From a virus, in the IMG/VR virus record IMGVR_UViG_3300042484_001556, positions 1-64,000 of that record: DNA of 64,000 bases; one strand, given 5' to 3'. Shown piece by piece: positions 4,047 through 53,457 of the stretch. The notes beneath the pieces were generated by a model. The model was given only the letters and a program-made list of their open reading frames with translations. It ran no database searches and was not told the DNA's origin. The translations under genes and the position numbers were made by a program. Numbering within the stretch: position 1 is the first letter of the stretch; each line of letters starts with the position of its first letter.

Positions 4047-4052
4047 TATGAG

Positions 4053-4060: not shown

Positions 4061-4095
4061 AGTAGTATTAGATAATAAATTTTTTGAAAGATATT

Positions 4096-5172: not shown

Positions 5173-5293
5173 TAGCATAAGATAGTTATAGTGTGAGTAG
5201 GCATAACTTCATATGAATGGATAAACTATAATAGATGCAATAATTTGATATTCTTTTTCATGTAATACTATTTAGTATCCAAATGTGGAATAT

Positions 5294-5301
5294 TATAAAT
5301 A
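5294..5301 (+). promoter_or_regulatory. T4-type late promoter TATAAATA
   Basis: A perfect TATAAATA lies 25 bases before the ATG at 5326 in a 153-base gap that contains no gene. It marks the start of the fibre transcription unit beginning at 5326. Confidence 0.75.
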
Positions 5302-5325
5302 ATAGAGAGAATTTCTGGAAAAAGA

Positions 5326-13089: not shown

Positions 13090-13431
13090 ATGGCAACCGC
13101 ATTAAACGTATTTAAAACAGTAACCGCAGATATTACCACTGAAGATAAAATTCTTTATACTGCCCCATCTAGAAAAACTTCTATTTTCTTATCGGTACAG
13201 GCAGCAAATTTAAACAATACTACGGTACAGATATCTTTTTACCATGGATCCACTGCTAATGTAAAAACTGCTCTTGCTAAAGATTTCAAAATCCCAGGCA
13301 ACGACTCTATGGCTATTATTAGTGCTGGTTCTAAATTGGTTTTAGAAACTGGGCAAAAGGTATATGCAAGTGCTAGCGCAAATAATGCAGTTCAATTATT
13401 AATGAGTGTCTTAGAATCAGCAAATGACTAA
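13090..13431 (+). CDS. Small fibre-associated beta-rich protein
   Basis: A 113-residue paralogue of the protein at 1719, in the same position relative to a KCxRDTG fibre. It begins MATALNVFKTVTADITTED and ends LLMSVLESAND. Its 3' end overlaps the next gene by 8 bases, suggesting translational coupling and stoichiometric expression. Function is unknown; an accessory or connector role is inferred from conserved synteny. Confidence 0.82.
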   Translation: MATALNVFKTVTADITTEDKILYTAPSRKTSIFLSVQAANLNNTTVQISFYHGSTANVKTALAKDFKIPGNDSMAIISAGSKLVLETGQKVYASASANNAVQLLMSVLESAND

Positions 13432-14515
13432 ACTAATATCCGGCAGAGTTGCGAAAGTTCCTAGCTCGAATGTTAGTTCGGATCGTTACCAATTCTTAGA
13501 TTTATCAGAAGCAGAACCAGATTTAGGCCTTCCGCCTGAACGGGCGCATGTACTTACCTCAGATTTAAATGGATATCGAAGTTGGATTCAATTAGATTCC
13601 GGTAACGTATTAGAAAGTACTAATCAATACTTTACGAATACTAGAGCTAGATCCGTATTCACGGCAGGAAAAGGTATCGCAATAAACGGAGATGGTGTAA
13701 TTATAAACACCGGATCTTCGTTTGAATTCAACTTAGGTATAGATGGTTCAGGATATGGCAATGTGTTAAGTACCATGTCTGGTATATTAACAATCCCAAA
13801 TTCTCCAGTAAACGACAGGCATGTATTAAGATCGTTACATATCACAAATATTAGTAATCAAGACGCATTAATATCCGGTAATATTTTATATTCTACGGGC
13901 AATACTGCACTGTTTGCGAATAAGTTACCAGTTCCAGTTGGTGGAGCTGTTGAATTAATGAGAAATGTGCAATTGCTGCAACCAAATGATAAGGTAAATC
14001 TTCAAGGATTTGCCTCAGATGGTACAGCTACATCTAATTTGTTACAATCAATTTATACATATGAAACATTTGCGACGGATTTTTCTTATGTCGGAAACGG
14101 AATTACATTAGAAAATTCCAATACAAATATACAAATATATGATTCGGCGCAAGGTTTTAGTATTGTAGAAAGCATTAAGCTTGTAAATTTAGTAAATTCA
14201 ACTGTTCCTGTTAAAGTATATTGGGGCGATGCAAATGGAAATCCTAAAGCATATTTAGCACATAATTTACCTATTCCGCCAAATTCTACGGTAGAAATAA
14301 TAACGGCACCAAAAAGAATTGAATTGAGTGATAAATTATATGCAAATTATACAAATGCTGATGCTGGAGCAGTTTCTGCATTTATTTCTGCTAGATTAGG
14401 TTCAGTATATTCAATCGCAGCATACACACCGTCTGCTTCTTCGTCAAATACGTTCTTAGCTTCATTTACAACTACCGAAAATGACGGTACAGTTATATAC
14501 TACTCAATAGAATAG
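13424..14515 (+). CDS. Fibre protein (shaft/base partner of glycine-rich tip)
   Basis: A 363-residue protein. Residues 1-55 match the N-terminus of the collagen-like fibre at 2088 (DRYQFLDLSEAEPDLGLP), a probable docking module. Residues ~60-363 form a domain shared with the C-termini of the fibres at 16327 and 20835: FTAGKGI, HITNISNQDALISGNILY, YGDANG/WGDANG-type segments, and a final acidic EGT/DGT-xx-YYSIE. In all three cases the next gene is a glycine-rich tip protein a few bases away. The domain is therefore likely the part of the fibre that receives the tip. It overlaps the preceding gene by 8 bases. Confidence 0.85.
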   Translation: MTKLISGRVAKVPSSNVSSDRYQFLDLSEAEPDLGLPPERAHVLTSDLNGYRSWIQLDSGNVLESTNQYFTNTRARSVFTAGKGIAINGDGVIINTGSSFEFNLGIDGSGYGNVLSTMSGILTIPNSPVNDRHVLRSLHITNISNQDALISGNILYSTGNTALFANKLPVPVGGAVELMRNVQLLQPNDKVNLQGFASDGTATSNLLQSIYTYETFATDFSYVGNGITLENSNTNIQIYDSAQGFSIVESIKLVNLVNSTVPVKVYWGDANGNPKAYLAHNLPIPPNSTVEIITAPKRIELSDKLYANYTNADAGAVSAFISARLGSVYSIAAYTPSASSSNTFLASFTTTENDGTVIYYSIE

Positions 14516-14519
14516 AAAA

Positions 14520-16283
14520 ATGGCAACTATATTTCCTAAAAACTTTGCATCTAATTCCTTTACTGGATCGGTCGTTGTGCGCAACGGACATGCAAATGTC
14601 TTTCTTCCTACCAATCCATACGCATTAGAAGGAAATAAACAATTCGTAGTTAGATTAAGAAAAAATAGCACCAGTGGATTTATAGTTGCAACAAGTCCGC
14701 AAATGACTATTAACGATACAAGTACAGTTGTCAGTTTATCTGCAAATGTATCTTCTGTTGCAGAGGGCAATCTTGTAAGTTTTACACTTGTTACTGCTAA
14801 TGCGATGAATGGCGCAGGTATATTTTATTCCGCATATCCGGTAACAGCAAATTTAACTATATCCGATTTTTTAGGTGGCAACACTGGCGTTTTTCCTATA
14901 GTAAATAACCAAGCAACATTTGTTCTAAGGGCAAATACGGATGCTGGTCTTGTAGACGAGACCGGAGAAAAGTTTGGTGTTCAAATAAGAACAAATTCTG
15001 CAGTAGGCGACATCGTTTATTCATCCTCAAATGTAGAAATATTAGATTTTTATAAAACTGTCAATGTAATAAGTTTTGTTGAAAACTATACTGAAATTGC
15101 AGAGGGATCGAATGTAACATTTACAATTACTGCACATAATGCAAATGCCACAACTTTGTATTATTATACTTCAGGTAATGTGTTACCGTCAAATTTTGTG
15201 TCCGGAAATACTGGTTCTTTTATAATATCTACAGGGACTCCCGTAGTTGTAAATTTACCAACCACATCAATTATACCAAACAACGTATCCCAATCCTTTC
15301 AATTGAATCTTAGTCAAACGGGTGTTGGAGGAGTAGCTATAGCAACTAGCAATGTTGTATCTATTGTGGATACGGCATTGGCATTTATCAATGCCACCGG
15401 CGGAAATGTTACTGTTGCAAATGGGTATACCTCCCATAGATTTACCGATTCAAATATATTTAATATTACAAATTTGGGAATTGTTGCAAATCGAACTATT
15501 GAATATTTAGCAGTAGCTGGAGGCGGTGCTGGGGGTGTCGGTAGCACTCCGGAAGCTATGGGCGCAGGCGGCGGTGGCGCCGGCGGCATGCTAACAGGTA
15601 CGTATACTGCAACTAATACTGGAATTAGTAACATTATAATTGGCGGCGGTGGTGCCGGCGTGTCAGTTGCATTTCCTGCTACTAAAGGTGATAACGGATC
15701 TAATACAACAATTACATCTCCATATATTTCTATATTAGCGTTTGGGGGTGGTTCTGCCGGATATGTATATAACCCAGGGGTTGCGAACGGTAATCCTGGT
15801 GGATCGGGCGGCGCCGCTGGACGAACCTATTTGGCGGCCGGCAGTGTAGGCTCCGGAGTACCAGGGCAAGGTAATCCCGGCGGCTCGTATAGCGACAGCG
15901 CAACTGAAGCCGGAGGGGGAGGAGGTGCCGGGTCAGCTGGAGAATCGGGAAGTCCTTCTCAGGTTCCGTCTGGATCATTTAGTGCCGCTGGTGGTGCAGG
16001 CGCAACCACACCATTTACTTCGGGTGAATATTTTGCAGGTGGCGGTGGCGCCGGTGCTTACCATAGCCCGAATGACGGCGAAAGATATCTAGGTCTTGGA
16101 GGTACGGGAGGTGGCGGTAACGGTGGTGGTTATTTCCCCGGAGATCCCAATGGATCGAATCGCGCTGCTCAAAGTGGAGGAACAAATACTGGCGGCGGAG
16201 GTGGCGGAGGTAAAGGTTTCGGCGGCGTACCTAGCGGAAGCGGTGGCAGCGGTATAGTAATTATTCGGTATCGTACTAGTTAA
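14520..16283 (+). CDS. Glycine-rich fibre tip / adhesin
   Basis: A 587-residue protein. Residues 1-55 are a conserved head shared with the genes at 18971 and 22576 (NALEG/YALEGN, VVRLRK). Residues ~65-165 and ~170-270 look like Calx-beta-type sandwiches (SVAEGNLVSFTLVTANA; IAEGSNVTFTITAHNA). After a linker (GGNVTVANGYTSHRFT), residues ~330-585 are dominated by GGGGxGG runs, ending in GGSGIVIIRY. Polyglycine-rich lattices are known from gp38 adhesins of T2-like phages, where loops between glycine strands bind the receptor. By analogy this is a receptor-binding tip. It follows its fibre partner after 4 bases. Confidence 0.85.
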   Translation: MATIFPKNFASNSFTGSVVVRNGHANVFLPTNPYALEGNKQFVVRLRKNSTSGFIVATSPQMTINDTSTVVSLSANVSSVAEGNLVSFTLVTANAMNGAGIFYSAYPVTANLTISDFLGGNTGVFPIVNNQATFVLRANTDAGLVDETGEKFGVQIRTNSAVGDIVYSSSNVEILDFYKTVNVISFVENYTEIAEGSNVTFTITAHNANATTLYYYTSGNVLPSNFVSGNTGSFIISTGTPVVVNLPTTSIIPNNVSQSFQLNLSQTGVGGVAIATSNVVSIVDTALAFINATGGNVTVANGYTSHRFTDSNIFNITNLGIVANRTIEYLAVAGGGAGGVGSTPEAMGAGGGGAGGMLTGTYTATNTGISNIIIGGGGAGVSVAFPATKGDNGSNTTITSPYISILAFGGGSAGYVYNPGVANGNPGGSGGAAGRTYLAAGSVGSGVPGQGNPGGSYSDSATEAGGGGGAGSAGESGSPSQVPSGSFSAAGGAGATTPFTSGEYFAGGGGAGAYHSPNDGERYLGLGGTGGGGNGGGYFPGDPNGSNRAAQSGGTNTGGGGGGGKGFGGVPSGSGGSGIVIIRYRTS

Positions 16284-16288
16284 GTAAC

Positions 16289-16296
16289 AATAAATA
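16289..16296 (+). promoter_or_regulatory. T4-type late promoter box AATAAATA
   Basis: AATAAATA, 31 bases before the ATG at 16327. The 45 bases at 16311-16355 (leader plus gene start) are identical to 20819-20863, so the promoter-leader unit has been copied together with its fibre gene. Confidence 0.65.
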
Positions 16297-16326
16297 ATAG
16301 AGTATAAAATAAAGTAAAGTATAAAA

Positions 16327-18969
16327 ATGCCAATAATTAACAAAGGTGTATTTGATATAGATTCAGTTTACCTACGAGAAGTAGGTAACGATTGGCCTAC
16401 TGCTCAGGTGATAACAACATCTGATGTAATTGAAACTACAAATCAATATTTTACTAATGCTAGAGCAGTTGTTGCAGTAACGCCATTATTGACTACTGCA
16501 AACGTAATCGAAACTGCAGGAAATTTATATTTCACAAATGAACGAGTCGCTGCAAACGTAGCCAATTTATCTGTTGGCGCATTATTTGATGTTATCATAA
16601 GCGGAAATTTAGAAACAGGTCAGGCCCTGGTCTATAGTAGTAATGCTAATGCATTTATTCCAATTTTCGTCAATAGCGAGGTTGCAAATGTAGCAGATAT
16701 TGCAGGTAGAGTACTTTCATTAGAAAATCAAACTACTGCTAATGTAAGAGAGGCAAGTAGTAATTTATACTTTACAAATACTAGAGTATTAGATGCAATT
16801 TCATTGGCAACAATTAATCCTAGTAATATTAATGTACAGAATATAGTTGTTGATGTAATAACAGCAAATACATGGAATAGATTATATTCATCAAATGTTA
16901 TAGAATTTAATAATTTATTCTATACAAATTCAAGAGTTATATCTGCAGTAACACCAATATTGACAACTGCAAATGTTGTAGAATTGGACAATTTATATTT
17001 TACAAATACCAGAGTTATATCTGCAGTAACACCACTATTGACAACTGCGAATGTTATAGAATTAGAAAACCTATTCTATACAAATTCAAGAGTTATATCT
17101 GCAGTAACACCAATATTGACAACTGCAAATGTTGTAGAACTTTCAAGCAATTTATATTTTACAAATACTAGAGTATTAGATGCAATTGCATTTGCAGATA
17201 TTACTAATACAAAAAATTTAAATGCTTTAGGAAATATTGTTGCAAGAATAATTTTTGCAGATGCAGTTTACGCAAATACCATTACTTCAACCGGTATCAT
17301 CTCAACTACTGCAGTATTTGATTCTCTTATAGTAAATACAAATACTATATTTTACGGTGACGTAACAACATACGGGGCAAATAATTTATCCATTTCAGAT
17401 AATATGATTTATCTGAATAATGAATCTACACAAACTAATCCCGACATGGGTTGGGTCGGCAATTACAATGACGGTAATTATGGGCACGCTGGATTTTTCC
17501 GAGATGCGTCGGATGGAATATTTAAGGTATTTGATAACTATACACTTGAGCCAGATGCAAATATTTTTATTGATACTGCTAATGTATCTTTTAGATTAGC
17601 GAATTTACAGGCTACAAATTATTTTGGTAACGTAACCGGTTTTGTTACAGGGCAAGTAAGTAGTATAGGTAATCATAATTCAGACGCATTAGCAGAAGGA
17701 TCAGTAAAACTTTACTATACAAATAGTAGAGTAATTTCTGCAGTAACACCATTATTAACGACTGCAAATGTATCAGAGTTAACCAATCTATATTATACAA
17801 ATGCAAGAGTTCTTGCAAATGTAGAACAGATGAGTATCAATGTTTTAGCTGATGTTGATATTACAGATGTTTCTGTTAATTCTGTACTTACATGGAATGG
17901 AACAAAGTTTGTTCCCGGAGCAACAGATGTTGCATTACGAGCAAATTTTGCAAATACTGCAGGATCTGCCAATGTTGCATTACTTGCAGCTGTTGCAAAT
18001 ATTGCACTATTAACAAATTTTGCGAATGCTGTTTTATCTCTAAGTAACTTTACTACTGCAAATTTAGCAGAAGGCAATAATTTATATTTTACTAACACCA
18101 GAGCTAGATCAGCATTTACCGCAGGTAAAGGTATTGTTATACAAGATAACGGTACCATTAAAAATACAGGTTCTCCTCCAGAATACAATTTAAGTATAAA
18201 TGGTACGGGTGGAGGAAACGTCTTAGGCGCAATGTCAACCTTAATTACATTTCCAAATGTGACTAATGACAGATATTTATTATCATCAATACATTTAGTT
18301 AATACTTCGAATGATACAGCTTTAATTTCTGGTAACATTTTATATGCTACAGGTAATACCGCAGTATTTGCAAATAAAATTCCTGTAGGGGAAGGAAGTG
18401 TCGTAGAATTTATTAAACGAGGCCAAATATTTCAACCAAATGATAAAATTAATTTGCAAGGATTTAATTCATCAGGTGTAGCCACCTCGAACTTAATGTC
18501 CGTAATGTATACTTATGAAACATTTGATACTGATATAAGTTATATTGGACTCGGGCAAACTATTGCAACAAGTAACACGCAAACACAGATATATGATTCA
18601 TCGCAATCATATAGTATAATTGAAAGTATAAAATTTGTCAATCTTTCTACGGGAAATACCCCTATTCGATTAGTGTGGGCCGACGCTAACGGTGTACCTA
18701 AAGCACATCTTGCATATAATGTTCAAATACCCGCAAATTCATCTTTAGAAATTTTGCAAAAGCCTAAAAGAATTGAGCAATATGATAAATTGTATGCATC
18801 GTATGCAAATGCAGCAAATGCAACAATGTCGGTATTCGTATCTGCAAGAATTGGTGCCGCTTATACGATAAGTACTTATACTGCCGCAGCTATCCCAGGA
18901 AACACATTGTCACTAGCATTCCTCACAACCGACAATGAAGGTACATCACTATACTACACAATAGAATAA
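16327..18969 (+). CDS. Modular tail fibre protein (cassette 1)
   Basis: An 880-residue fibre beginning MPIINKGVFDIDSVYLREVG, an N-terminus shared with the genes at 20835 and 24275. Residues ~30-290 contain repeated 26-residue units (FTNTRVISAVTPLLTTANV type). Next come a fibre domain with NMIYLNNESTQTNPDMGWVG and more LYYTNARV modules. Residues ~590-880 are the tip-receiving domain also found at 13424 and 20835. The gene has its own late promoter and is followed after one base by a glycine-rich tip gene. Together they form one fibre/tip cassette of a set of three. Confidence 0.87.
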   Translation: MPIINKGVFDIDSVYLREVGNDWPTAQVITTSDVIETTNQYFTNARAVVAVTPLLTTANVIETAGNLYFTNERVAANVANLSVGALFDVIISGNLETGQALVYSSNANAFIPIFVNSEVANVADIAGRVLSLENQTTANVREASSNLYFTNTRVLDAISLATINPSNINVQNIVVDVITANTWNRLYSSNVIEFNNLFYTNSRVISAVTPILTTANVVELDNLYFTNTRVISAVTPLLTTANVIELENLFYTNSRVISAVTPILTTANVVELSSNLYFTNTRVLDAIAFADITNTKNLNALGNIVARIIFADAVYANTITSTGIISTTAVFDSLIVNTNTIFYGDVTTYGANNLSISDNMIYLNNESTQTNPDMGWVGNYNDGNYGHAGFFRDASDGIFKVFDNYTLEPDANIFIDTANVSFRLANLQATNYFGNVTGFVTGQVSSIGNHNSDALAEGSVKLYYTNSRVISAVTPLLTTANVSELTNLYYTNARVLANVEQMSINVLADVDITDVSVNSVLTWNGTKFVPGATDVALRANFANTAGSANVALLAAVANIALLTNFANAVLSLSNFTTANLAEGNNLYFTNTRARSAFTAGKGIVIQDNGTIKNTGSPPEYNLSINGTGGGNVLGAMSTLITFPNVTNDRYLLSSIHLVNTSNDTALISGNILYATGNTAVFANKIPVGEGSVVEFIKRGQIFQPNDKINLQGFNSSGVATSNLMSVMYTYETFDTDISYIGLGQTIATSNTQTQIYDSSQSYSIIESIKFVNLSTGNTPIRLVWADANGVPKAHLAYNVQIPANSSLEILQKPKRIEQYDKLYASYANAANATMSVFVSARIGAAYTISTYTAAAIPGNTLSLAFLTTDNEGTSLYYTIE
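16933..17166 (+). repeat. 78-bp tandem repeats (3 copies) in fibre gene
   Basis: Units starting at 16933, 17011 and 17089, each 78 bases and encoding a 26-residue RVISAVTPxLTTANVxEL-NLYFTN unit. Copies 1 and 3 are closer to each other than to copy 2 in several positions. The in-frame length lets the fibre shaft grow or shrink by recombination. Confidence 0.8.
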
Positions 18970-18970
18970 T

Positions 18971-20797
18971 ATGCCATTAACTCCAAGTAAATTTGCAACA
19001 AATTCCCTTTTTGGCACGACTTCCGTTCAAAATGGGTTTGCTAATATAATGTTAGATACGATACCCTACGCATTAGAGGGAAACGTAAACTTCGTTGTTA
19101 AATTAAGAAAAGGTAGTATTTCCGGCGACGTCATTGCTACTTCTCCAGTAATAACATTACAGGATTTAAGTTCAGTTATTAGTTTAACGGCAAATACCGC
19201 ATCCGTATCTGAAGGAAGTATTGTAAGCTTTACACTTACAACCGCAAATGCTGCAAATAATGCAAACGTATTTTACTCTGTATTGCCGGTTACTGCTAAC
19301 GTAACCAATTCAGATTTTTATACTGCGAACACAGGTACAGTATCTCTTATTAATAATCAAGCAACGATTTCTTTATATGCAAACACCGACGCAGGTTATG
19401 TAAATGAAGATGGCGAAACATTTAAAGTACAAATAAGAACTAATTCTGTAACAGGTGACATTATCTACACATCTGCAAATGTTGCAATTGTAGATTTATA
19501 TAAATTAGTTACTATAACAGGCGTTACGCCTAATAATGCATCTATAAATCAAGGTGCAAATATAATATTTACTGTTTCTGCACTAAATTCAAATGGAATA
19601 ACTTTATTTTATTCCACTTCAGGTAACGTAAATTCTACAAACTTCATAGGTGGAAATACCGGTTCTTTTGTTGCGAATGCGACAGGCGGGTTAGTTGTAT
19701 TGCAAAGTAATACCAACATACCGTTGAATGAGATACGACAGTTTGCCTTACAAGTTAATCAAACAGGATTTGCTCCTGTACCTAGTGCAAATGTTGTAAT
19801 TTATGGGCCAATTTCATATATTGAAGCAACAGGTGGTACTGTAACTACTGCGGGCGGATACAGAACACACGCATTTACATCATCTGCGAATTTAGATGTT
19901 ACCAGTTTAGGTGCAAGTACTACTATTGAATATCTTATTGTTGCTGGTGGCGGTGGTGGAGGCGGTGGTGGTACTTCGAATATTCCGCCGTACTCAGGTG
20001 GTGGCCCCTACGGCGGTGGTGGCGGAGGCGGTGCTGGTGGCACATTTATTGGTAATGTTACGGTAGGGTTAGGCGGAACGGTTATTGTAGTTGGGGGCGG
20101 TGGCGCAGCGACATCACCAAAAAATAGAGCAGGATTTAATGGTACCGATACAACCATCGCGGTATTTGGGGGATCTACAATACTTGCATATGGTGGAGGT
20201 GGCGGTAGTGGTGTTCCAACACCAGGCCCCATACCCGGCGCAGCATCTCCGGGGGGGTCGGGCGGTGGTACTGCACCAGATGCGGTGGCCGGCGCGGGAG
20301 GAGGAACTCCTGGGCAAGGATACCCGGGAGCAGGTGGTATAAGTTGCGGCATAGCAGATAACTTAGGTGGCGGGGGCGGTGGTGCTGCGGAATCAGGAGT
20401 TAGTACAGATGGACCAAGTAATAGTCCTGGTACTGCGACCCGCGGAGGAGATGGTATAGGTGTACCTTGGGTTCCGGGATCATATGGTACCCCTGGGCCT
20501 ACACCAGGCGCAAGATATTTTGGTGGTGGCGGCGGTGGCGGTAATTCTCCTGTGGCGATGGCATATGACGTGCGCGGCGGTCATGGCGGTGGTGGAGCTG
20601 GCGGAAATTATTATTCACCCCCATCCGGTGCATATGCAATAGGTAGGAATACTGGTGGTCGTGACGGGGGAGGATATGCAGATGGCAATACCGGCGGTGG
20701 CGGTGGAGGAAATGGTTCCGCGGGTGCATCAACCGGCACCGGCCAAGGTGGTCCTGGAGGTTCGGGTATTGTGATTATTCGTTACCCATACATATAA
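18971..20797 (+). CDS. Glycine-rich fibre tip / adhesin (cassette 1)
   Basis: A 608-residue paralogue of the protein at 14520, starting one base after the fibre stop. It has the conserved head (YALEGNVNFVVKLRKG), two Calx-beta-like segments (SVSEGSIVSFTLTTANA; INQGANIIFTVSALNS), the linker AGGYRTHAFTSSANL, and a glycine-rich lattice from about residue 324 with long G runs and the ending GGSGIVIIRYPYI. A 76-base stretch (19373-19448) is identical to 22981-23056 in the tip gene of cassette 2. Loops between glycine runs differ strongly from its paralogues, as expected for a receptor-binding surface. Reverse-strand reading frames rich in proline are shadows. Confidence 0.86.
   Translation: MPLTPSKFATNSLFGTTSVQNGFANIMLDTIPYALEGNVNFVVKLRKGSISGDVIATSPVITLQDLSSVISLTANTASVSEGSIVSFTLTTANAANNANVFYSVLPVTANVTNSDFYTANTGTVSLINNQATISLYANTDAGYVNEDGETFKVQIRTNSVTGDIIYTSANVAIVDLYKLVTITGVTPNNASINQGANIIFTVSALNSNGITLFYSTSGNVNSTNFIGGNTGSFVANATGGLVVLQSNTNIPLNEIRQFALQVNQTGFAPVPSANVVIYGPISYIEATGGTVTTAGGYRTHAFTSSANLDVTSLGASTTIEYLIVAGGGGGGGGGTSNIPPYSGGGPYGGGGGGGAGGTFIGNVTVGLGGTVIVVGGGGAATSPKNRAGFNGTDTTIAVFGGSTILAYGGGGGSGVPTPGPIPGAASPGGSGGGTAPDAVAGAGGGTPGQGYPGAGGISCGIADNLGGGGGGAAESGVSTDGPSNSPGTATRGGDGIGVPWVPGSYGTPGPTPGARYFGGGGGGGNSPVAMAYDVRGGHGGGGAGGNYYSPPSGAYAIGRNTGGRDGGGYADGNTGGGGGGNGSAGASTGTGQGGPGGSGIVIIRYPYI
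19373..19448 (+). repeat. 76-bp direct repeat, copy A
   Basis: Identical over 76 bases to 22981-23056. It encodes the NTDAGYVNEDGETFKVQIRT end of the first Calx-beta-like domain in two tip genes whose flanks are diverged. This indicates recent gene conversion or module exchange. Confidence 0.85.
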
Positions 20798-20855
20798 TAA
20801 ATAATAAAATGTTAAAACAAAGTAAAGTATAAAAATGCCAATAATTAACAAAGGT
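20794..20855 (+). repeat. 62-bp direct repeat: promoter, leader and fibre start, copy A
   Basis: Identical over 62 bases to 24234-24295. It spans the late promoter, the whole untranslated leader and the first seven codons (MPIINKG) of a fibre gene. It is a natural site for homologous recombination between fibre cassettes. Confidence 0.9.
20796..20803 (+). promoter_or_regulatory. T4-type late promoter box AATAAATA
   Basis: AATAAATA overlaps the stop codon of the preceding tip gene and lies 31 bases before the ATG at 20835. It is inside the 62-bp repeat shared with 24234-24295. Confidence 0.7.
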
Positions 20856-22571
20856 GTATTTGACACAGGTGATGCATTCTATGGAGTTGACATCTCAGCT
20901 ACTGATGCTGACACTACATTTGCATACTCAACCATTGGCGATAAATTTTTACTCAATAAGACGATTGACGTAGTTAAAGGCGATGTTAGAGCATCCGGCA
21001 ATTTAATTGCAAATGGTTTAATAATTAGAAACATATCCGTTTCTGATCAAGTTCTGTCGGGACAAATTATATCTGCAAACATATTAGCAGATAGTGTAAC
21101 CGCAAATATTTGGAATAGATTATACACATCAAATGTTGTAGAAAATACAAATCAATACTTTACTAATGTTCGTGTACTACAAGCAGTAACACCCGTATTA
21201 ACCACTGCAAATGTTGTAGAAAATACAAATCAATACTTTACCAATACTAGAGTATTAAGTGCCCTTGTAGGCGCAAATGTATCTGTAAATAATCTAATTG
21301 TATCCGGTGATCTTGAAGTTCAAGGTAATACAGTTACATTAAATACAGCAACACTAACAATTGAAGATAAGAATATTGTACTTGCCAACGGCGCGCCAAA
21401 CTCGGCTGCTGCGGATGGAGCGGGTATTACAATTAATGGTGCTGACGCTACGTTTACATACGCAAATACTGGCGATAAATTTGTAGTTAATAAAACATTA
21501 GATGTAGTTGTAGGCGATGTTATATCATCCGGCAATTTAATTGCAAATGGTTTAGTAATTAGAAATATAACGGTATCGGATCAAATCCTTACGGGGCAAG
21601 TTACTTCTGCAAACATACTAGCAGATATAGTAACTGCAAATATTTGGAATGGCCTTTATACATCAAATGTTGTAGAAAATACTAGTTTATATTTTTCAAA
21701 TTCTCGAGCCAGAGCAGCGTTTACCGCAGGTAAAGGTATTGTTATTCGAGGCGACGGTACTATACAAAATACTGGCGGCGCAGTAAATTATAACTTAGAT
21801 ATTGATGGTACGACAAGTGGTAATATTTTAAGTACAATGTCTGCGATGTTGGCATTTCCGTCGATCCCTTCCACTGATAGATTTTTACTTCGTTCTATAC
21901 ACGTAGTAAATATATCAAATGCGCCAGCATTAGTTTCGGGTAATATTTTATATGCCACAGGTAATACGGCATTTTTTGGAAATCAAATACCAGTAATGGA
22001 AGGCGGCGTTCTTGAGTTTATGGACAAACCGCAGATATTTCAACCTGGCGATGTAATTAATTTACAGGGATTTGACAATTCAGGTACAGCAACATCGAAT
22101 ATATTAAGTGCAATGTTTACTTATGAAACATATTCGACCGATCCATCGTTTGTTGGATTAGGTCAAACATTGACGACCAATGCTACAAATTACCAAATAT
22201 ATAATTCGGAACAATCCTCAAGTATAATTGAGAGCATTAAATTTGTTAATTTAGCTACAACGACTAATACAGCAAAATTATATTGGGCAGATGCAAATGG
22301 TATATTAAGAACTCATTTGGCACATAATTTACCAGTACCTCCTAATTCTTCGGTTGAGGTATTAGTTCAACCCAAACGTATAAATTTTAAAGATACGTTA
22401 TACGCAAGTATTCGAGATAATACGAATATGTCGGTATTCGTATCTGCAAGATTGTCAGCAACATATACGATATCGGAAAATACAGGTAATGTTGCACCTG
22501 GCGGAACAGTTTCGACGGTATTTGTTACTACCGATACTGAAGGAACCACTTTGTACTACACAATAGAATAG
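20835..22571 (+). CDS. Modular tail fibre protein (cassette 2)
   Basis: A 578-residue fibre with the MPIINKGVF N-terminus. It contains about one and a half copies of the domain GDLEVQGNT..LTIEDKNIVLANGA..ADGAGITI, each followed by KFLLNKTIDVVKGDVRASGNL-type sequence. Two VVENTNQYFTN modules lie near residues 100-140. The tip-receiving domain occupies residues ~290-578 and ends EGTTLYYTIE. A tip gene follows after 4 bases. It is shorter than the cassette 1 fibre because it lacks the long 26-residue repeat region. Confidence 0.87.
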   Translation: MPIINKGVFDTGDAFYGVDISATDADTTFAYSTIGDKFLLNKTIDVVKGDVRASGNLIANGLIIRNISVSDQVLSGQIISANILADSVTANIWNRLYTSNVVENTNQYFTNVRVLQAVTPVLTTANVVENTNQYFTNTRVLSALVGANVSVNNLIVSGDLEVQGNTVTLNTATLTIEDKNIVLANGAPNSAAADGAGITINGADATFTYANTGDKFVVNKTLDVVVGDVISSGNLIANGLVIRNITVSDQILTGQVTSANILADIVTANIWNGLYTSNVVENTSLYFSNSRARAAFTAGKGIVIRGDGTIQNTGGAVNYNLDIDGTTSGNILSTMSAMLAFPSIPSTDRFLLRSIHVVNISNAPALVSGNILYATGNTAFFGNQIPVMEGGVLEFMDKPQIFQPGDVINLQGFDNSGTATSNILSAMFTYETYSTDPSFVGLGQTLTTNATNYQIYNSEQSSSIIESIKFVNLATTTNTAKLYWADANGILRTHLAHNLPVPPNSSVEVLVQPKRINFKDTLYASIRDNTNMSVFVSARLSATYTISENTGNVAPGGTVSTVFVTTDTEGTTLYYTIE

Positions 22572-22575
22572 AAAA

Positions 22576-24237
22576 ATGGCAACTATACTACCTAGTAATT
22601 TTACTTCGAATTCATTATCTGGATCATTTACTGTTCAAAATGGTTTAGCCAATATAACACTTCGCACGGTTCCTTATGCATTAGAGGGGGACAAACCGTT
22701 TGTTATTAAAATTCGCAGAAATGGTATAACCGGCGATGTTATTGCAACATCTCCGCCAATCGTATTACGAGATACTAGCTCTATTGTAAGTTTAACTGCA
22801 AATGTTTCATCTATAGCTGAAGGAAATCTTGTAAGTTTTACTTTTGTTACGGCAAATGCAACAAATAATGCAAATATATTTTATTCAGTATTTCCAGTAA
22901 CAGCGAATTTAACATTGTCTGATTTTTATGGTTCTAATGTAGGAATTGCTACATTAGTAGATAATCAAGCAACTTTCTCATTATATGCAAACACCGACGC
23001 AGGTTATGTAAATGAAGATGGCGAAACATTTAAAGTACAAATAAGAACTAATTCTGCTTCAGGTAACATTGTTTATACGTCATCTAATGTAGCAATATTA
23101 GACACATATAAAGCATTTAATGTATTCGGCTTTGTTGAAAGTATTTCTTCTGTGGTTGAGGGAGCTAACGTAACATTTACAATTACTGCACATAATGCGG
23201 ATGCAGGTACATTATACTACTCTACTACAGGTAATGTTACAAGTTCTAGCTTCGTATCCGGTAATACTGGATCAGCTGTTGTTAGTGGTACTACTGCTAC
23301 AATATTATTACAAACAACCTCCACCGTGCCTGCCCTTGAAGAAAGAACATTCCAATTAAAACTTAGTCAGACATCGGCATTTGGACCAACCATAGCAACT
23401 AGCAACACGATAACTATAATAGACTCTGCATTGGCATATATTAATGCAACAGGCGGCGATCTAGTTACTGTTGCTGGTGGTTACAAGACTCATAGATTCT
23501 ATACTTCTAATGCATTAGTCATTACTGGATTAGGTACTCCTGCAGGCAGAACACTTGATTATCTAGTTGTTGCTGGCGGTGGCGGTGGCGGTGGCGGACT
23601 ATACGGTGGTGGTGGCGGTGGCGCTGGCGGTTTTAGAACAAGTGCAGTTACTGTCACTACTGCGGGGAATGTAACTGTTGTCGTTGGTGCGGGAGGGGCA
23701 CAGGCGACTTATATCGCACCTGGTGCTTCAAGTATGTTTAGCGGAAATCCATCTTCAATCAATGCCCCATATGTATCTATTGATTCAGCTGGCGGCGGGC
23801 ACGGCGGCGGTTATCCGGTCTCACCTAGCGGCGCCGGCGGCGGTTCAGGTGGCGGTGGCGGACATTCGGCAACTTATCCCGCAGGTGGCGGTACTCCTGG
23901 TCAAGGAAATCCTGGCGGTATTCTATACGGCGGAGGTGGAGGCGCATCGGCTGCTGGTACGAATGGCGGCGCTGGTAGCGCCAACCCTAAGGGTAATGGA
24001 GGAGATGGTTCAACCACACCGTTTACTCCTGGCGAATATTTTGCAGGTGGAGGTGGCGGTGGCAAAGAAACGATGCCACAGCCCGCATCCGTTGGGTCGG
24101 GTGGATTAGGTGGCGGTGGACCTGGATTATCCGCCGCAACTGTTAATACTGGAGGCGGAGGCGGAGGCGGTGTACAATCAAATCCTTCTGGTGCAGGTGG
24201 TTCGGGTATTGTGATTATTCGATATCCATACGCATAA
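22576..24237 (+). CDS. Glycine-rich fibre tip / adhesin (cassette 2)
   Basis: A 553-residue paralogue of the tips at 14520 and 18971. It has the head module (YALEGDKPFVIKIRRN), Calx-beta-like segments (SIAEGNLVSFTFVTANA; SVVEGANVTFTITAHNA), the linker AGGYKTHRFYTSNAL, and a glycine-rich lattice from about residue 331 ending GGSGIVIIRYPYA. The N-terminal part is a mosaic: some segments are closest to the 14520 tip, others (the 76-base identical block) to the 18971 tip. Predicted to be the distal receptor-binding protein of its fibre. Confidence 0.86.
   Translation: MATILPSNFTSNSLSGSFTVQNGLANITLRTVPYALEGDKPFVIKIRRNGITGDVIATSPPIVLRDTSSIVSLTANVSSIAEGNLVSFTFVTANATNNANIFYSVFPVTANLTLSDFYGSNVGIATLVDNQATFSLYANTDAGYVNEDGETFKVQIRTNSASGNIVYTSSNVAILDTYKAFNVFGFVESISSVVEGANVTFTITAHNADAGTLYYSTTGNVTSSSFVSGNTGSAVVSGTTATILLQTTSTVPALEERTFQLKLSQTSAFGPTIATSNTITIIDSALAYINATGGDLVTVAGGYKTHRFYTSNALVITGLGTPAGRTLDYLVVAGGGGGGGGLYGGGGGGAGGFRTSAVTVTTAGNVTVVVGAGGAQATYIAPGASSMFSGNPSSINAPYVSIDSAGGGHGGGYPVSPSGAGGGSGGGGGHSATYPAGGGTPGQGNPGGILYGGGGGASAAGTNGGAGSANPKGNGGDGSTTPFTPGEYFAGGGGGGKETMPQPASVGSGGLGGGGPGLSAATVNTGGGGGGGVQSNPSGAGGSGIVIIRYPYA
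22981..23056 (+). repeat. 76-bp direct repeat, copy B
   Basis: Identical to 19373-19448; see that entry. The copies are about 3.6 kb apart in the same orientation. Confidence 0.85.
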
Positions 24238-24295
24238 TAAATAATAAAATGTTAAAACAAAGTAAAGTATAAAAATGCCAATAATTAACAAAGGT
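24234..24295 (+). repeat. 62-bp direct repeat: promoter, leader and fibre start, copy B
   Basis: Identical to 20794-20855. Recombination between the two copies would delete or duplicate the 3.4-kb fibre-plus-tip cassette 20835-24237 without breaking any gene. Confidence 0.9.
24236..24243 (+). promoter_or_regulatory. T4-type late promoter box AATAAATA
   Basis: AATAAATA overlaps the end of the preceding tip gene and lies 31 bases before the ATG at 24275, within the 62-bp repeat. Confidence 0.7.
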
Positions 24296-26446
24296 ATATT
24301 TAATGTAAATTCTATTTATCTACGAGATGTAGGTAACGATTGGCCTACTGCTCAAGTTATTTCTACTACTGATATAGTTGAGGGCACCAATGAATACTTT
24401 TCTAATTCAAAAGTGTATGCCCCTGCAGTTGTAGCGGTAACTCCGTTATTAACTACTGCAAATGTTGTAGAAACTACAAATCAATACTTTACCAATGTTC
24501 GTGTATCTCAGGTTATTGATCCAAAATTAACTACAGCAAATGTACTTGAAACTACTAATCAATATTTCACCAATGCGAAAGTTATTGCAACGGTTACTCC
24601 GTTACTAACTACTGCAAATGTTAATGAGTTAGGAAATTTATATTTTACAATTCCTCGAGTCTTTGAGGCGTTATCTTATGCAAATTTAGCCTTAAATAAT
24701 TTAACACTTATCGGTGATCTTGAAGTACAAGGAAATGTTGTTACTTTAAACATTGGTACTTTAAATGTTGAAGATAAAAATATCTTATTGGCCAACGGCG
24801 CAATTAATGCGGCAGCTGCAGATGGTGCAGGTTTCACAATTGCAGGTGCGCAAGCTAATATAGTATATCAATCCGCCGGTAATAAATTTTTAGTTAATAA
24901 AACATTAGATGTAATTATTGGCGATGTTAGAGCATCAGGTAATTTAATTGCAAATGGTCTAATAATTAGAAACATATCAGTATCAGATCAAGTACTTGCC
25001 GGAAATATTACGGGCACTTCTGTTACCGGTGCTAATATTTTAGCTGATAGTGTAACCGCAAATAGTTGGAATAGATTATATACTGCCAATGTAATTGAAA
25101 CTGCCGGTAATTTATATTTTACTACGCAAAGAGCAAGAGATTCATTTAGCGCCGGCGATTTTATCTCAATAACTAATGGGGTTATATCTGCTTCAGCAAC
25201 AACTACTGTTGCAAATGATAGTACTACAATACTAGCACAAGCGGATACGCTAAGTTATTCGATGGGCAGAACAATTTCTGATCCAAAAAACATATTAGTT
25301 GTAATTGAGGGATTATTGCAATTACCGGTTACTGATTATGGTGTTACCGGATCTACGATAACATTTACAAGTCAGCCCCCAGTTGGGTCAAATATTGAAG
25401 TTAGATTCTTTGGTTCAGAATCGTTTACTACCTCATATCCTACATTAGTATCCACCGTGGATAGTTTTGTGGGTAACGGATCAAATGTAAATTATACGTT
25501 GTCCACAACGCCGGCGGGAATAAATTTTATTTCCGTTATTATAGATGGCGTGTTTCAACAAATTAATACATATACATTATCTGGCAAAACTTTAATATTA
25601 TCCGAAGCCCCTAGTGCCAATGCAGATATTGATGTAAGAATAATTAGTGGCCCAGTAGGCGGGCAATATAACACCAGAACATTTGTTGGTGATAATACGA
25701 CAAACACGTTTGTTGTTTCTTCTGGATTTACTCAAGATAGCATTTTAGTATTTGAAAATGGCATTGCCCAAGTACCAACTACAGATTATACTTATGATTT
25801 AGGTGTATTAAGATTTGTATCGCCGCCGGCAACGAATGTTGTTATACATATTAGAGAATTAAGTACAGCTGGGCCAAATCTTATTGCCGCTATACGAGGA
25901 ACAGATATAGTAACGGGCAATTTAATACCAATTGCAGATGTTACGTATAATTTGGGTAGTCCTACCAAAAAATACAAAACTTTATATTTAAGTGCAAATA
26001 CTATATTTTTAGGTAATAGTAGTATTAGTATAAATGACAATTCTATTGCAATTAGTTCATCGGGGCAAACTTCTACATTAGCTGTACAGGGACGGGATCT
26101 ACAATCTAGTAATATTATACCTGAAACTAGCGGAATATCTACGTTAGGTAGCGATAATAAAAAATATAAAACTTTGTATTTGGAACCGGCTAATTCTTTG
26201 GTAATAGGTAATACTACTATAGGTGTTACCGGTACTTCATTATCCGTTAGCTCACCTATCAAATTAAAAAGTTATTCTACAATAGATTTAAATAGTTTAA
26301 CTAGTTCTGTAGGAGATATAGTTTTTAATACTACTGTAGCAACAGTACAATATTACAATGGGGAATCTTGGGCTAACATAGGAGCATCCGCTTCTGGGGG
26401 TTCAGACAATAAAACAGTAGGATACGCTTTAGTATTCGGAGGATAA
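24275..26446 (+). CDS. Modular tail fibre protein (cassette 3, different C-terminus)
   Basis: A 723-residue fibre with the shared MPIINKG start and LTTANVxETTNQYFTN modules. It has one GDLEVQGNVVTLN..VEDKNILLANGA domain. Residues ~310-530 then hold three beta modules of the form VVIEGLLQLPVTDYGV..ITFTSQPP..IEVRFF. The C-terminus lacks the tip-receiving domain of cassettes 1 and 2. It ends instead with SPIKLKSYSTIDLNSL..GDIVFNTTVATVQYYNGESWANIG, shared with the small protein at 28786. The downstream partners also differ (26448 and 26819), so the C-terminus and partner genes were exchanged together. Confidence 0.86.
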   Translation: MPIINKGIFNVNSIYLRDVGNDWPTAQVISTTDIVEGTNEYFSNSKVYAPAVVAVTPLLTTANVVETTNQYFTNVRVSQVIDPKLTTANVLETTNQYFTNAKVIATVTPLLTTANVNELGNLYFTIPRVFEALSYANLALNNLTLIGDLEVQGNVVTLNIGTLNVEDKNILLANGAINAAAADGAGFTIAGAQANIVYQSAGNKFLVNKTLDVIIGDVRASGNLIANGLIIRNISVSDQVLAGNITGTSVTGANILADSVTANSWNRLYTANVIETAGNLYFTTQRARDSFSAGDFISITNGVISASATTTVANDSTTILAQADTLSYSMGRTISDPKNILVVIEGLLQLPVTDYGVTGSTITFTSQPPVGSNIEVRFFGSESFTTSYPTLVSTVDSFVGNGSNVNYTLSTTPAGINFISVIIDGVFQQINTYTLSGKTLILSEAPSANADIDVRIISGPVGGQYNTRTFVGDNTTNTFVVSSGFTQDSILVFENGIAQVPTTDYTYDLGVLRFVSPPATNVVIHIRELSTAGPNLIAAIRGTDIVTGNLIPIADVTYNLGSPTKKYKTLYLSANTIFLGNSSISINDNSIAISSSGQTSTLAVQGRDLQSSNIIPETSGISTLGSDNKKYKTLYLEPANSLVIGNTTIGVTGTSLSVSSPIKLKSYSTIDLNSLTSSVGDIVFNTTVATVQYYNGESWANIGASASGGSDNKTVGYALVFGG

Positions 26447-26447
26447 A

Positions 26448-26819
26448 ATGGCAGCACCCAATTTAATCGGCGCAACAACAATTAACGGAAAAACTTCCGG
26501 AATAAGTTTAACAACTACAGTAGCAACTACTGTATTAAATAATCCGGCAAGTTCTGGCAAATGCTTAAAAATTAATACATTAAATGTGAGTAATTATAGT
26601 GCTTCATCTGCAACTATAACGGTATCATACAACACTGGTGCTAATTTAACCGGTACATCATTTCAAATTGTAGCAAACGTAACTATTCCGTCGTATGCGA
26701 CTTTGAATATTATTGATAAATCTAGTCAATATTATTTAGAAGAAAATAGATGTTTAGCTGCAACCGCAGGTACTGCAAATACAATAATATTAACTACAAG
26801 CTATGAGGATATTAGCTAA
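26448..26819 (+). CDS. Small fibre-associated beta-rich protein
   Basis: A 123-residue protein preceded by a strong GGAGGA site. It is rich in Thr/Ser/Asn with alternating hydrophobics (KINTLNVSNYSASSATITV) and lacks enzymatic motifs. It occupies the slot taken by 1719, 13090, 29257 and 49747: between a fibre and the next structural gene. Its stop overlaps the start of the following glycine-rich gene (TAATG). It is probably a connector or cap in fibre assembly. Confidence 0.78.
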   Translation: MAAPNLIGATTINGKTSGISLTTTVATTVLNNPASSGKCLKINTLNVSNYSASSATITVSYNTGANLTGTSFQIVANVTIPSYATLNIIDKSSQYYLEENRCLAATAGTANTIILTTSYEDIS

Positions 26820-27769
26820 TGGTTAAAAGGTATCAAGGTGGATTTATTTCTGCCACTAGAGCATCCACCTCTCTTTCCTCAGCAAGCGGAGTATATGACG
26901 CACTATCTACAGTTTCACAATTAAAAACTGCAGGTTATTGGCCAGGATCTTTATTTACCTTTGAAGTATTAATTGTGGGGGGCGGTGGCGGCGGCGGTGG
27001 CTGGAGACAATCCGGCGGCGGTGCTGGTGGGTTATTATATTATGGTAATAATACTACAACAAAAACACCAAATGGTCCAGAATTAACAGCAACAATTAAT
27101 CAAGCATTTACTGTTACTATTGGATCGGGATCTAGTGGTACTTCTAGTGGCGCAACACAGGGTGGACATACTACCTTTGATGTATATACTGCGATAGGAG
27201 GGCAAGGATCTAATTATCGTGCGGCTGCAGGCGGTTCTGGCGGTGGAGGCCCGGGTGGCGGAAACTTAGGTAGCGGTGGTGCAGGCACAGCGGGTCAAGG
27301 TAATCCCGGCGGAACAAGTGTATCTGGAGGTTGGGGCGGTGGTGGTGGCGCCGGAGCTGCAGGTGGTAGCGGAACTTCCCCTGCGACGGGTGGGGTAGGT
27401 GGGGTAGGTCTACAGTACAGCGAATTTTCTGCAGTAGGCGGCTCGCCCGCAGGATGGTTTGCCGGCGGTGGCGGTGGAGGAGCACAAACTAATGGTGGCA
27501 TTGGGGGGTTAGGCGGCGGTGGAGCTGGCGGTACGCCCGCAACATCTGCAGAAGGACAAAATGCTATTGCTAATACTGGCGGAGGCGGTGGAGGTGACAG
27601 CGATATTCACCGTAGCGACACTGGAGGAAATGGCGGATCGGGAGTAGTAATTGTAAGTTACCGAGGTACGGTTGCGCGAGGAACAGGGGGAACAATTAGT
27701 ACATCTGCTAGAACAAATTATGTTGTACATACATTTAATTCTTCAGGCACATTTACATTCACAGGTTGA
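26819..27769 (+). CDS. Glycine-rich fibre tip / adhesin (short type)
   Basis: A 316-residue protein. The ~45-residue N-terminus (MVKRYQGGFISATRAS..GVYDALSTVSQLKTAGYWP) is of a phage tail-tip type and differs from the Calx-beta tips. Residues ~50-283 are a GGGGGGG-rich lattice with FEVLIVGGGGGGGG at its start and GGSGVVIVSY at its end. The last ~30 residues (ISTSARTNYVVHTFNSSGTFTF) form a beta cap. It is translationally coupled to 26448. By analogy with gp38-type polyglycine adhesins, a receptor-binding role is likely. Confidence 0.83.
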   Translation: MVKRYQGGFISATRASTSLSSASGVYDALSTVSQLKTAGYWPGSLFTFEVLIVGGGGGGGGWRQSGGGAGGLLYYGNNTTTKTPNGPELTATINQAFTVTIGSGSSGTSSGATQGGHTTFDVYTAIGGQGSNYRAAAGGSGGGGPGGGNLGSGGAGTAGQGNPGGTSVSGGWGGGGGAGAAGGSGTSPATGGVGGVGLQYSEFSAVGGSPAGWFAGGGGGGAQTNGGIGGLGGGGAGGTPATSAEGQNAIANTGGGGGGDSDIHRSDTGGNGGSGVVIVSYRGTVARGTGGTISTSARTNYVVHTFNSSGTFTFTG

Positions 27770-27772
27770 TAT

Positions 27773-28177
27773 ATGGCACATTTTGCAAGATTAGATAATT
27801 TTAACACGGTTATAAATGTTATTGTTGTTGCTAATGAAGATACATTAGTCGACGGCATTGAAAATGAACAAAAGGGCATAGAATTTTGCCAAAGTTTAAT
27901 TCCAGGTAAATGGATTAAAACTAGTTACAATACCTCCGGCGGAAGACATTTATTAGGTGGCTTGCCTTTTAGAAAAAATTATGCTTCTATTGGTTATAAG
28001 TATGATCCCAACCGAGACGCATTTATTCCTCCGCAACCTCATATGAGTTGGACACTGAATGAAACAACCTGTTTATGGGAAACCGCGGTAGAACATACCA
28101 AAGATGGTGAAACTTGGTCTTGGGATGAAGCTTTGCTTGATTGGGTAAAAGTAACACCCGTCGTAACTTTACCTTAA
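27773..28177 (+). CDS. Conserved marine-phage fibre-accessory protein (MAHFAxL family)
   Basis: A 134-residue member of a family very common in T4-like marine phages, with a paralogue at 54477. Conserved elements are the start MAHFARLDN, a WIKTSYNTSGG block, RKNYASIGYKYDPNRDAFIPPQP, and a C-terminal Trp-rich motif (SWTLNETTCLWE...WSWDEALLDWV). In both places it follows a glycine-rich tip gene. No catalytic site is apparent. It may decorate or chaperone fibres; the function is unproven. Confidence 0.85.
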   Translation: MAHFARLDNFNTVINVIVVANEDTLVDGIENEQKGIEFCQSLIPGKWIKTSYNTSGGRHLLGGLPFRKNYASIGYKYDPNRDAFIPPQPHMSWTLNETTCLWETAVEHTKDGETWSWDEALLDWVKVTPVVTLP

Positions 28178-28184
28178 ATACTTT

Positions 28185-28709
28185 ATGAAAAAAGAACACG
28201 AATTAGGATATTTTGGAAATATTTGGGTTAGGCAAAATGTTTTAGAGAATGAGGGCGACGAATCTGAAGGCCACATTCATTTATTTGATCATGTTAGTTT
28301 ACTAGCACGCGGATCAGTCAAAGTTACTATAGATGGGTATCCTCCAAGGCAGTTTGTTGCCCCTACATTCATTGTTATTAAAAAAGAACATAGGCATAAA
28401 TTTACTGCAATAACTGATGATGTACTTTGGTACTGCGTATTTGCAATACGAGATGAAGCTGGGGAATTATCCGATATATATCCCGAAACAAGTAGTCCAT
28501 TTTTTATTGCAGAGGTTGGAGATAACTATTGGGACAATAGAAAAAAATTAGAAGATCTAAGTATTGATATAGACCATAAACCTTTTCCTAGTTGGAGTTT
28601 TGACAATACTTTGTTAAAATGGAAAGCCCCTACTGCATATCCTCAAGACGGAAAACTATACATATGGAATGAGGAGTCGTGCAAATGGATTCGCAATCTT
28701 CAAGTTTAA
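28185..28709 (+). CDS. Cupin-domain protein fused to fibre-accessory C-terminal motif
   Basis: A 174-residue protein. Residues ~25-90 look like a cupin beta-barrel: GHIHLFDHV (His30, His32, His36), LARGSVKVTIDG, and KKEHRHKFTAI (His69, His71), which could bind a metal. Residues ~145-174 (PFPSWSFDNTLLKWKAPTAY...YIWNEESCKWI) match the Trp-rich C-terminus of the neighbouring protein at 27773 and of 54477. The protein therefore appears to be a fusion of a cupin with the fibre-accessory tail module. Cupins can be enzymes or simple binding domains; the ligand here is unknown. Position 7 bases downstream of the 27773 family member supports a shared virion context. Confidence 0.72.
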   Translation: MKKEHELGYFGNIWVRQNVLENEGDESEGHIHLFDHVSLLARGSVKVTIDGYPPRQFVAPTFIVIKKEHRHKFTAITDDVLWYCVFAIRDEAGELSDIYPETSSPFFIAEVGDNYWDNRKKLEDLSIDIDHKPFPSWSFDNTLLKWKAPTAYPQDGKLYIWNEESCKWIRNLQV

Positions 28710-28722
28710 TAATTGAGCATAA

Positions 28723-28730
28723 CATAAATA
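28723..28730 (+). promoter_or_regulatory. T4-type late promoter box CATAAATA
   Basis: CATAAATA lies 55 bases before the ATG at 28786. A second CATAAATA precedes the paralogous gene at 30780, so the box travels with this gene family. Confidence 0.6.
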
Positions 28731-28785
28731 AAAGAATATTGACCAATATACTCAAAATAACATTTTAAGACTTAGAGAAACCTAA

Positions 28786-29247
28786 ATGGCAAGACGAATA
28801 AGTAGGTTACAAATTAATGCAGGCACCGCTAGTAATAATGATATATTGGTGGTAGAGGGCAACGACTTAGTTTATAAAAATCTTGCAAATATCTATGCTG
28901 GGATAAGTCCAAATTCAAATGTTGAGGGTAACATTAGATTTACCGGTTCCGTTACAGCTAATTCATTTGCTTCTACCGGTTTCGGCGTACCAACATTAAC
29001 ATCCGCAACAAACATCAATTTAAATGCAAATGGGTATAATGGCGGCGCAGTTGTAATACAAAATTCGGCATTACGATTAAGAAGTTATTCCACATTGAAT
29101 TTGACAAGTTTAACCTCAACGTCCGGCGATGTAATATATAATTCTAATACAGCAACGGTGCAATATTACAATGGCTCATCTTGGGCAAACATTGGTGCAG
29201 GTGCATCTGCAGAATCAGTAAGCCCATTTTTACTAATGGGAGCATAG
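28786..29247 (+). CDS. Short fibre protein (paralogue of 30780 N-terminus)
   Basis: A 153-residue protein. Residues 1-~95 (RRISRLQINAGTASNNDILV...GFGVPTLTSATNINL) are nearly the same as in the protein at 30780, down to long identical DNA stretches. The C-terminus (LRLRSYSTLNL..ATVQYYNGSSWANIGAG) instead matches the end of the 24275 fibre. It thus looks like a minimal fibre: a docking module plus a short beta tip. The next genes are an accessory protein and a glycine-rich tip. Confidence 0.83.
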   Translation: MARRISRLQINAGTASNNDILVVEGNDLVYKNLANIYAGISPNSNVEGNIRFTGSVTANSFASTGFGVPTLTSATNINLNANGYNGGAVVIQNSALRLRSYSTLNLTSLTSTSGDVIYNSNTATVQYYNGSSWANIGAGASAESVSPFLLMGA

Positions 29248-29256
29248 GGAAATCAT

Positions 29257-29586
29257 ATGGCAACAACATACAAAGTTTTAGGACAAGTTAATCCCGCATC
29301 AAATACATTCACTACGCTGTATACGGTTCCGGCGGCAACAAGTACAGTTGTATCTACAATTAATGTGTGTAATCAAGGCATAGCTAACGATACTTTTAGA
29401 ATTGCAATTAGGCCAGGCGGCGAAACATTAGTTCCAAAACATTATATATCTTTTAACACTGTGGTTCCTGCATATGATTCTATTAGTTTAACAGTCGGAA
29501 TAACATTAGCTACAACTGATATAATCACCGTGTATGCAAATGCATCTACAACAAGTTTTAATGTGTTTGGTTCGGAGATTAGTTAA
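29257..29586 (+). CDS. Small fibre-associated beta-rich protein
   Basis: A 109-residue protein closely related to that at 49747: both begin MAT-KVLGQ, share LYTVPAA-S-T, the segment KHYIS/KHYLL, and end FNVFGSEIS / FNIFGSEIY. Each follows a short fibre-like gene. The stop overlaps the start of the next gene (TAATG), suggesting coupled translation with the glycine-rich tip. Probably a fibre assembly or linker component. Confidence 0.82.
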   Translation: MATTYKVLGQVNPASNTFTTLYTVPAATSTVVSTINVCNQGIANDTFRIAIRPGGETLVPKHYISFNTVVPAYDSISLTVGITLATTDIITVYANASTTSFNVFGSEIS

Positions 29587-30713: not shown

Positions 30714-30744
30714 ACTGCATTCCCGTATCATAAGATTGTTACAT

Positions 30745-30752
30745 CATAAATA
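30745..30752 (+). promoter_or_regulatory. T4-type late promoter box CATAAATA
   Basis: CATAAATA lies 27 bases before the ATG at 30780 in a 66-base gap. Confidence 0.65.
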
Positions 30753-30779
30753 TAGATATTAGTACACAAGAAAAAGTAA

Positions 30780-53259: not shown

Positions 53260-53261
53260 TT

Positions 53262-53447: not shown

Positions 53448-53457
53448 CGAGGAATAC

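Follow-up and report, generated by a model that had tools for sequence, protein, structure and literature searches.

The fibre genes of an uncultivated, T4-like phage form a host-recognition island in which, unusually, a late-promoter/adaptor unit is repeated, and the phage appears to gain, lose and reshuffle its host-binding parts through recombination. The stretch of DNA analyzed here (the window) comprises bases 1-64000 of the 66,122-base IMG/VR record IMGVR_UViG_3300042484_001556, which is a fragment. Assignment of the source phage to the T4-like group is based on gene content: the window encodes a primase with 41% identity to that of Synechococcus T4-like phages, and baseplate-wedge and fibre PHROGs were detected together with genes for ribonucleotide reductase (RNR) and thymidylate synthase. 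Megablast searching of GenBank gave no near phage, tblastn returned no match for a tip query and 26-29% matches at best for a fibre query, and nothing relevant was obtained in sequence searches of the PDB. The genes and repeats that are discussed below are as follows, with positions given in the window.

4084-5172, glycosyltransferase gene, one basis of the likeness to the host recognition cluster discussed below
13424-14515, + strand, fibre 0 (363 aa), with a head (MTKLISGRVAKVPSS) unlike the others and a C-terminal adaptor common to fibres 1 and 2
14520-16283, + strand, tip 0, glycine-rich and adhesin-like (Pfam PF21722, E 3e-19)
16289-16355, + strand, repeat copy 1: ATAAATA (16290-16296), leader, ATG and first fibre-1 codons
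16327-18969, + strand, fibre 1 (880 aa): the shared head runs to codon 44-45 and is followed by NxYFTN modules and the body
16888-17187, + strand, array of ~78-bp coding modules in fibre 1 (NLYFTN..VTPLLTTANV), with strain-dependent copy number
18971-20797, + strand, tip 1 (608 aa), glycine-rich, phrog_2295
20794-20863, + strand, repeat copy 2: tip-1 stop, ATAAATA (20797-20803), leader, fibre-2 start and head
20835-22571, + strand, fibre 2 (578 aa)
22561-22587, + strand, 27-bp repeat where tip 2 begins, present in identical form at 14505-14531, where tip 0 begins
22576-24237, + strand, tip 2 (553 aa)
24234-24295, + strand, repeat copy 3: tip-2 stop, ATAAATA (24237-24243), leader, fibre-3 start and head
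24275-26446, + strand, fibre 3 (723 aa): head as in unit 3 and body as in unit 4 of the related contig G003
24407-24547, + strand, fibre-3 junction zone, where a unit is gained or lost relative to G003/G004; NxYFTN modules resembling fibre 2
26030-28756, + strand, end of fibre 3, small gene at 26448, tip at 26819 and genes at 27773 and 28185; a different ~1.4-kb stretch in G003/G004

The tip genes at 14520-16283, 18971-20797 and 22576-24237 each precede a fibre gene (16327, 20835 and 24275, respectively), and the tips are recognized by matches to the Pfam glycine-rich domain PF21722 and/or phrog_2295. Fibres 0, 1 and 2 have ~280 conserved C-terminal residues, with 48-50% identity between fibres. 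Just downstream of the island, at 36006-37592, lies a gene for a subtilase-family protease (PF00082, E 3e-32), relatives of which are present in ~80 IMG/VR contigs.

The promoter-leader-head segments at these gene boundaries are direct repeats. The 62-base identity reported in the initial annotation is exact (20794-20855 = 24234-24295, 62/62 bases), as is the 45-base match of a third copy (16311-16355 = 20819-20863, 45/45 bases), and the copies hold what had been read in them, namely ATAAATA, a leader, and ATG with the first fibre codons. The first few bases of the 62-bp identity are the 3' end of the upstream tip gene with its TAA stop codon (20795-20797 and 24235-24237), and at its other end are ATG and six further codons (MPIINKG). 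Copies 2 and 3 begin at the tip stop codon; copy 1, which aligns at 92% over 16289-16347, begins a few bases past the tip-0 stop. A weaker upstream extension shared by copies 2 and 3 (93% over 113 bp, 20749-20861 vs 24189-24301) takes in the conserved C-terminal end of the tips, GSGIVIIRYP. Past the head, the fibre bodies have ~30% identity in register, and fibre 2 has only the first part of the ~170-bp shared head. The copies far exceed chance expectation, the longest direct repeat in simulated windows being at most 20 bp, with a mean of 16.6 (order-3 Markov, n = 100). No copy beyond these three was found in the whole 66-kb record. In IMG/VR, exact and degenerate repeat patterns led back to the few related contigs described below and to no others, GTDB genomes gave no match, and no publication on fibre duplications with a shared promoter and N-terminus came up in a literature search. 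Among the 11,379 gene-start pairs compared, which include other T4-like contigs, head repeats are confined to this lineage, so that their generality is not demonstrable.

The ATAAATA box fits a T4-type late promoter, a putative function suggested by its agreement with the consensus, and of its occurrences in the window 14 are on the + strand and 2 on the - strand, mostly in gaps before genes. Outside the box, leader identity is 94% for copies 2 and 3 vs a mean of ~32% (maximum 48%) for the remaining pairs; copy 1 shares 37-45 bp exactly with the other copies around the ATG, and its similarity is understated in leader register because its spacing differs. Weak sigma-70-like matches lie over copy 2 (20769-20798) and copy 3 (24209-24238), one each, and such matches are no commoner than in shuffled sequence. 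A single terminator-like match is present at 20753-20766, and sites of this type are not enriched in the region (10 vs 13 in shuffles). Folding z-scores of -0.47, -0.81 and +0.91 give no indication of a stem-loop in the copies.

The relatives consist of a few IMG/VR contigs of the same lineage (G001-G005), which represent two or three strains in the searched collections. G001 and G002 are 99.98% identical, G003 and G004 are 99.99% identical, and, away from the variable spots, the identity of either group to the window is for the most part 95-99% (~96% for G003/G004). G002 and G003 may belong to one strain because the 331 bp over which they overlap are 100% identical. The remaining contig, G005, is 99.99% identical to the window and does not extend to the region at 24234. 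Of the IMG identifiers of the samples, only 3300002835 could be traced to publications, as that of the 'ME' lake metagenome (PMC6344600).

G003 and G004 carry an additional 2.45-kb unit that is not in the window, composed of a fused fibre+tip gene and the promoter and head that follow it, and this unit sits between the two halves of a single window gene, fibre 3. In G003, the fused gene (3469-5928, 819 aa) is headed by the repeat copy at 3428, and the next fibre (5966-7762) by another copy at 5925. Relative to G003, window fibre 3 is, as judged by alignment, a head-3/body-4 hybrid: window positions 24234-24406 match the unit-3 head (G003 3428-3600) at 98.8%, and positions 24528-26029 match the unit-4 body (G003 6051-7555) at 94.2%. 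The two matches are separated by ~120 bp of NxYFTN modules, whose nearest counterparts are in fibre 2 (24433-24496 vs 21182-21245, 91%). The extra unit is backed by two assemblies because G003 and G004 differ at 1 of 7,315 bases over this region; the window's own arrangement at 24234 rests on one assembly, and its join falls outside the exact repeat. The comparison of relatives proposed in the initial annotation mostly supports cassette exchange, given that the number of units between the same repeats differs in G003/G004, each event being seen once because the collections hold so few related strains.

What the comparison does not support is the idea that exchange takes place precisely at the 62-bp copies. 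The copies do flank fibre+tip pairs, each with its own ATAAATA, but the junctions lie downstream of the repeat, mostly at the NxYFTN motif, and those that could be resolved are ~110-270 bp past the ATG of the copy. At the fibre-3 gain or loss, the window retains 173 bp of the unit-3 head (24234-24406) and the unit-4 body joins from 24528-24548, the match resuming at codon 92, adjoining a motif at codon 95. When fibre 1 is compared in the window and G002, 178 bp are identical (16282-16459) and the head is common to codon 45, after which the bodies differ. The shared head of fibre 3 ends at codon 44.7 (vs G003 unit 3), and in both fibres an NxYFTN motif at codons 39-44 marks this end. In addition, fibre 2 of the window and G003 differ by one module between the motifs at codons 106 and 132. 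An NxYFTN motif is found no more than 3 codons away from 7 of the 10 junctions, where 1.0 would be expected over the full gene lengths and 2.2 if only the motif-bearing part is considered (P about 0.001). This enrichment is only indicative: the junctions were read off alignment ends, which repeated motifs make less sharp, they are not all independent of one another, and the 3-codon cut-off is arbitrary.

These positions bear directly on whether the phage has a built-in switch, in which the 62-bp copies would be crossover sites for deleting or duplicating whole units within its own genome. T4-like phages recombine readily, an exact identity of 62-64 bp is present inside one genome in both strains, and the strain difference amounts to one head-to-head unit. 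However, a crossover inside the 62 bp would have placed the unit-4 head (RFKLGEV) in window fibre 3, which instead has the unit-3 head, and none of the resolved junctions falls inside a copy. Nor was a recombinase seen among the ORFs scanned, a set made up of the larger ORFs from this part of the genome, and we regard a switch of this kind as unlikely.

It might also be argued that selection alone accounts for the copies, which would then be ordinary paralogues kept alike by the need of each fibre for the same promoter, leader and docking peptide. The genes behind the copies are indeed all of one kind, copy 1 does not differ between the window and G002, and the head unit is 98.8-100% identical between strains vs 94-98% for most bodies. 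Nevertheless, the seven other ATAAATA leaders in the window have little in common outside the box, and the synonymous positions of the seven codons shared by the copies are also identical. Moreover, head-body combinations differ by strain, which selection for identity alone cannot yield, and this explanation, weakened by the hybrid fibre 3, seems to us quite improbable. An assembly artefact, with units wrongly joined or collapsed at the repeats by short-read assemblers, is highly improbable. Exact 62-bp repeats can exceed assembler k-mers, and assembly error retains some room because contigs G001-G004 terminate within ~50-300 bp of a repeat copy or tip start, a pattern to be expected where alternative continuations confront an assembler. 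However, G003 and G004 are independent assemblies that agree, the fibre-3 hybrid junction lies outside the 62-bp copy, where long exact repeats are absent, and the fibre-1 body switch in G002 is likewise outside the copy.

We favour, as the probable explanation, a host-recognition island of fibre+tip units in which bodies and tips are exchanged by general recombination behind a constant promoter and head. The island is a row of such units, every one with its own putative late promoter. The constant part extends over ~170 bp, from ATAAATA through the leader and up to ~44 codons that close at NxYFTN, and its head presumably attaches the fibre to the virion. What varies is the fibre body together with the glycine-rich tip, which presumably makes contact with the host. 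Short homologies, both among the units and with co-infecting relatives, are provided by the repeated heads, the repeated NxYFTN modules and the conserved ends of the tips, and through them general, homologous recombination would probably add, delete or exchange bodies and tips while promoter, frame and docking head stay intact. Such exchange could take place within one genome or between co-infecting phages, and the fibre-3 difference could represent either loss in the window or gain in G003/G004. Because the structure models of fibre and tip are poor (pLDDT 41 and 52), the docking and receptor roles are without structural support, and the generic beta-sandwich matches obtained in a fold search with the low-confidence tip model were set aside. 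We also offer, as a tentative and rather unlikely extension, the idea that one standard plug (late promoter, leader and 44-codon docking head with an NxYFTN hinge) might act as a universal acceptor on which foreign bodies and tips are loaded in tandem as separately transcribed units, giving one virion or population a combinatorial, switchable set of fibres.

Variation within units (tip glycine-rich domains, numbers of 78-bp modules and distal fibre) is at least as common as the gain or loss of a unit. The glycine-rich core of tip 0 (15432-15864) has 70-87% identity to G002 inside surroundings of 95-99%, and the tip-2 glycine-rich domain past 23102 has no close match in G003. Fibre 1 in G002 has 1232 residues, with ~1.15 kb of differing sequence after the head, and fibre 2 in G003 has 552 residues and one 78-bp module fewer. 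In G003/G004, moreover, window positions 26030-28756 are swapped for the different ~1.4 kb listed above. Because tips, modules and distal fibre vary too, the repeated heads are one kind among the many variable places of the island.

Several other repeats were observed. A second family of repeated heads is present at 28786 (MARRISRLQINAGT) and 30780 (MSRRISRLQINAGT) in the region 28786-31628, each after ATAAATA, and its members share 40 bp (28790-28829 = 30784-30823) and 29 bp (28861-28889 = 30855-30883). In their N-terminal halves, tips 1 and 2, otherwise clearly diverged, share 76 identical bp (19373-19448 = 22981-23056), possibly through recent exchange between paralogues. Members of a family of ~109-aa genes occur at 29257-29586 and 49747-50076 in the window and at 7773-8102 and 9460-9789 in G003 (L095), those at 29257 and in G003 sitting between a fibre-type gene and a glycine-rich tip. 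Tandem 54-bp coding repeats are found at 49469-49680, exact over 158 bp. A tail-type gene (50449-53259) and a glycine-rich tip (53401-54462) are 87-89% identical in G003/G004 vs ~96% nearby, and 50449-54462 is possibly a second variable spot.

Promoter-early stem-loop cassettes (PeSLs) have reportedly been described in T4-like phages, by Arbiol in 2010 and Comeau in 2014, and proposed to promote module shuffling. This work is cited in PMC4503421. The repeats here resemble PeSLs as copied regulatory segments at gene boundaries that are tied to module gain or loss in relatives, but the box is of late type, a stem-loop is absent and the copy reaches into the coding head of the downstream gene. 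Membership in the PeSL class was ruled out by the promoter type (ATAAATA, T4-type late) and the absent stem-loop. The island is rich in fibre genes and differs among close relatives, as do T4-like host recognition clusters. In T4-like pelagimyophages and cyanomyophages, according to the passages of PMC7029224 that deal with it, the host recognition cluster is a hypervariable tail-fibre island that changes gradually through gene-cassette addition. The present island shares with the cluster so described (PMC7029224) a T4-like background, lack of synteny, fibre-rich content with a glycosyltransferase, and variation between close relatives; it differs in that a repeated late-promoter/head marks each fibre+tip boundary, repeats of this kind being no part of the cluster description in those passages. 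The succession of a fibre gene and a glycine-rich tip gene, the variable parts of which would set host choice, recalls the S16/T2-type gp37-gp38 long tail fibre with its polyglycine adhesin (PMC6851490), and, as in gp38-type proteins, glycine-rich repeats are interspersed with variable segments (PF21722; strain variation). Here, however, several fibre+tip pairs stand in a row, and the tips have 550-600 residues with a beta-rich N-terminal half; a phmmer search of the PDB gave no gp38 match. Finally, as in metaviromic islands and the flexible-gene pan-genomes of phages, receptor-binding genes are swapped for highly diverged versions in genomes otherwise 96-99% identical (PMC3909814, PMC7468147), but the exchange boundaries here map to a repeated adaptor unit and a coding motif.

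The in-frame joining of new fibre pieces under a working promoter is rarely visible, and the close relatives examined here show such a join. Tail-fibre exchange sets host range in T4-like phages. In the present lineage the promoter and head stay constant and most switches of body fall at a coding motif that recurs, which may provide a testable rule for the positions at which fibre units are exchanged in uncultivated aquatic phages.
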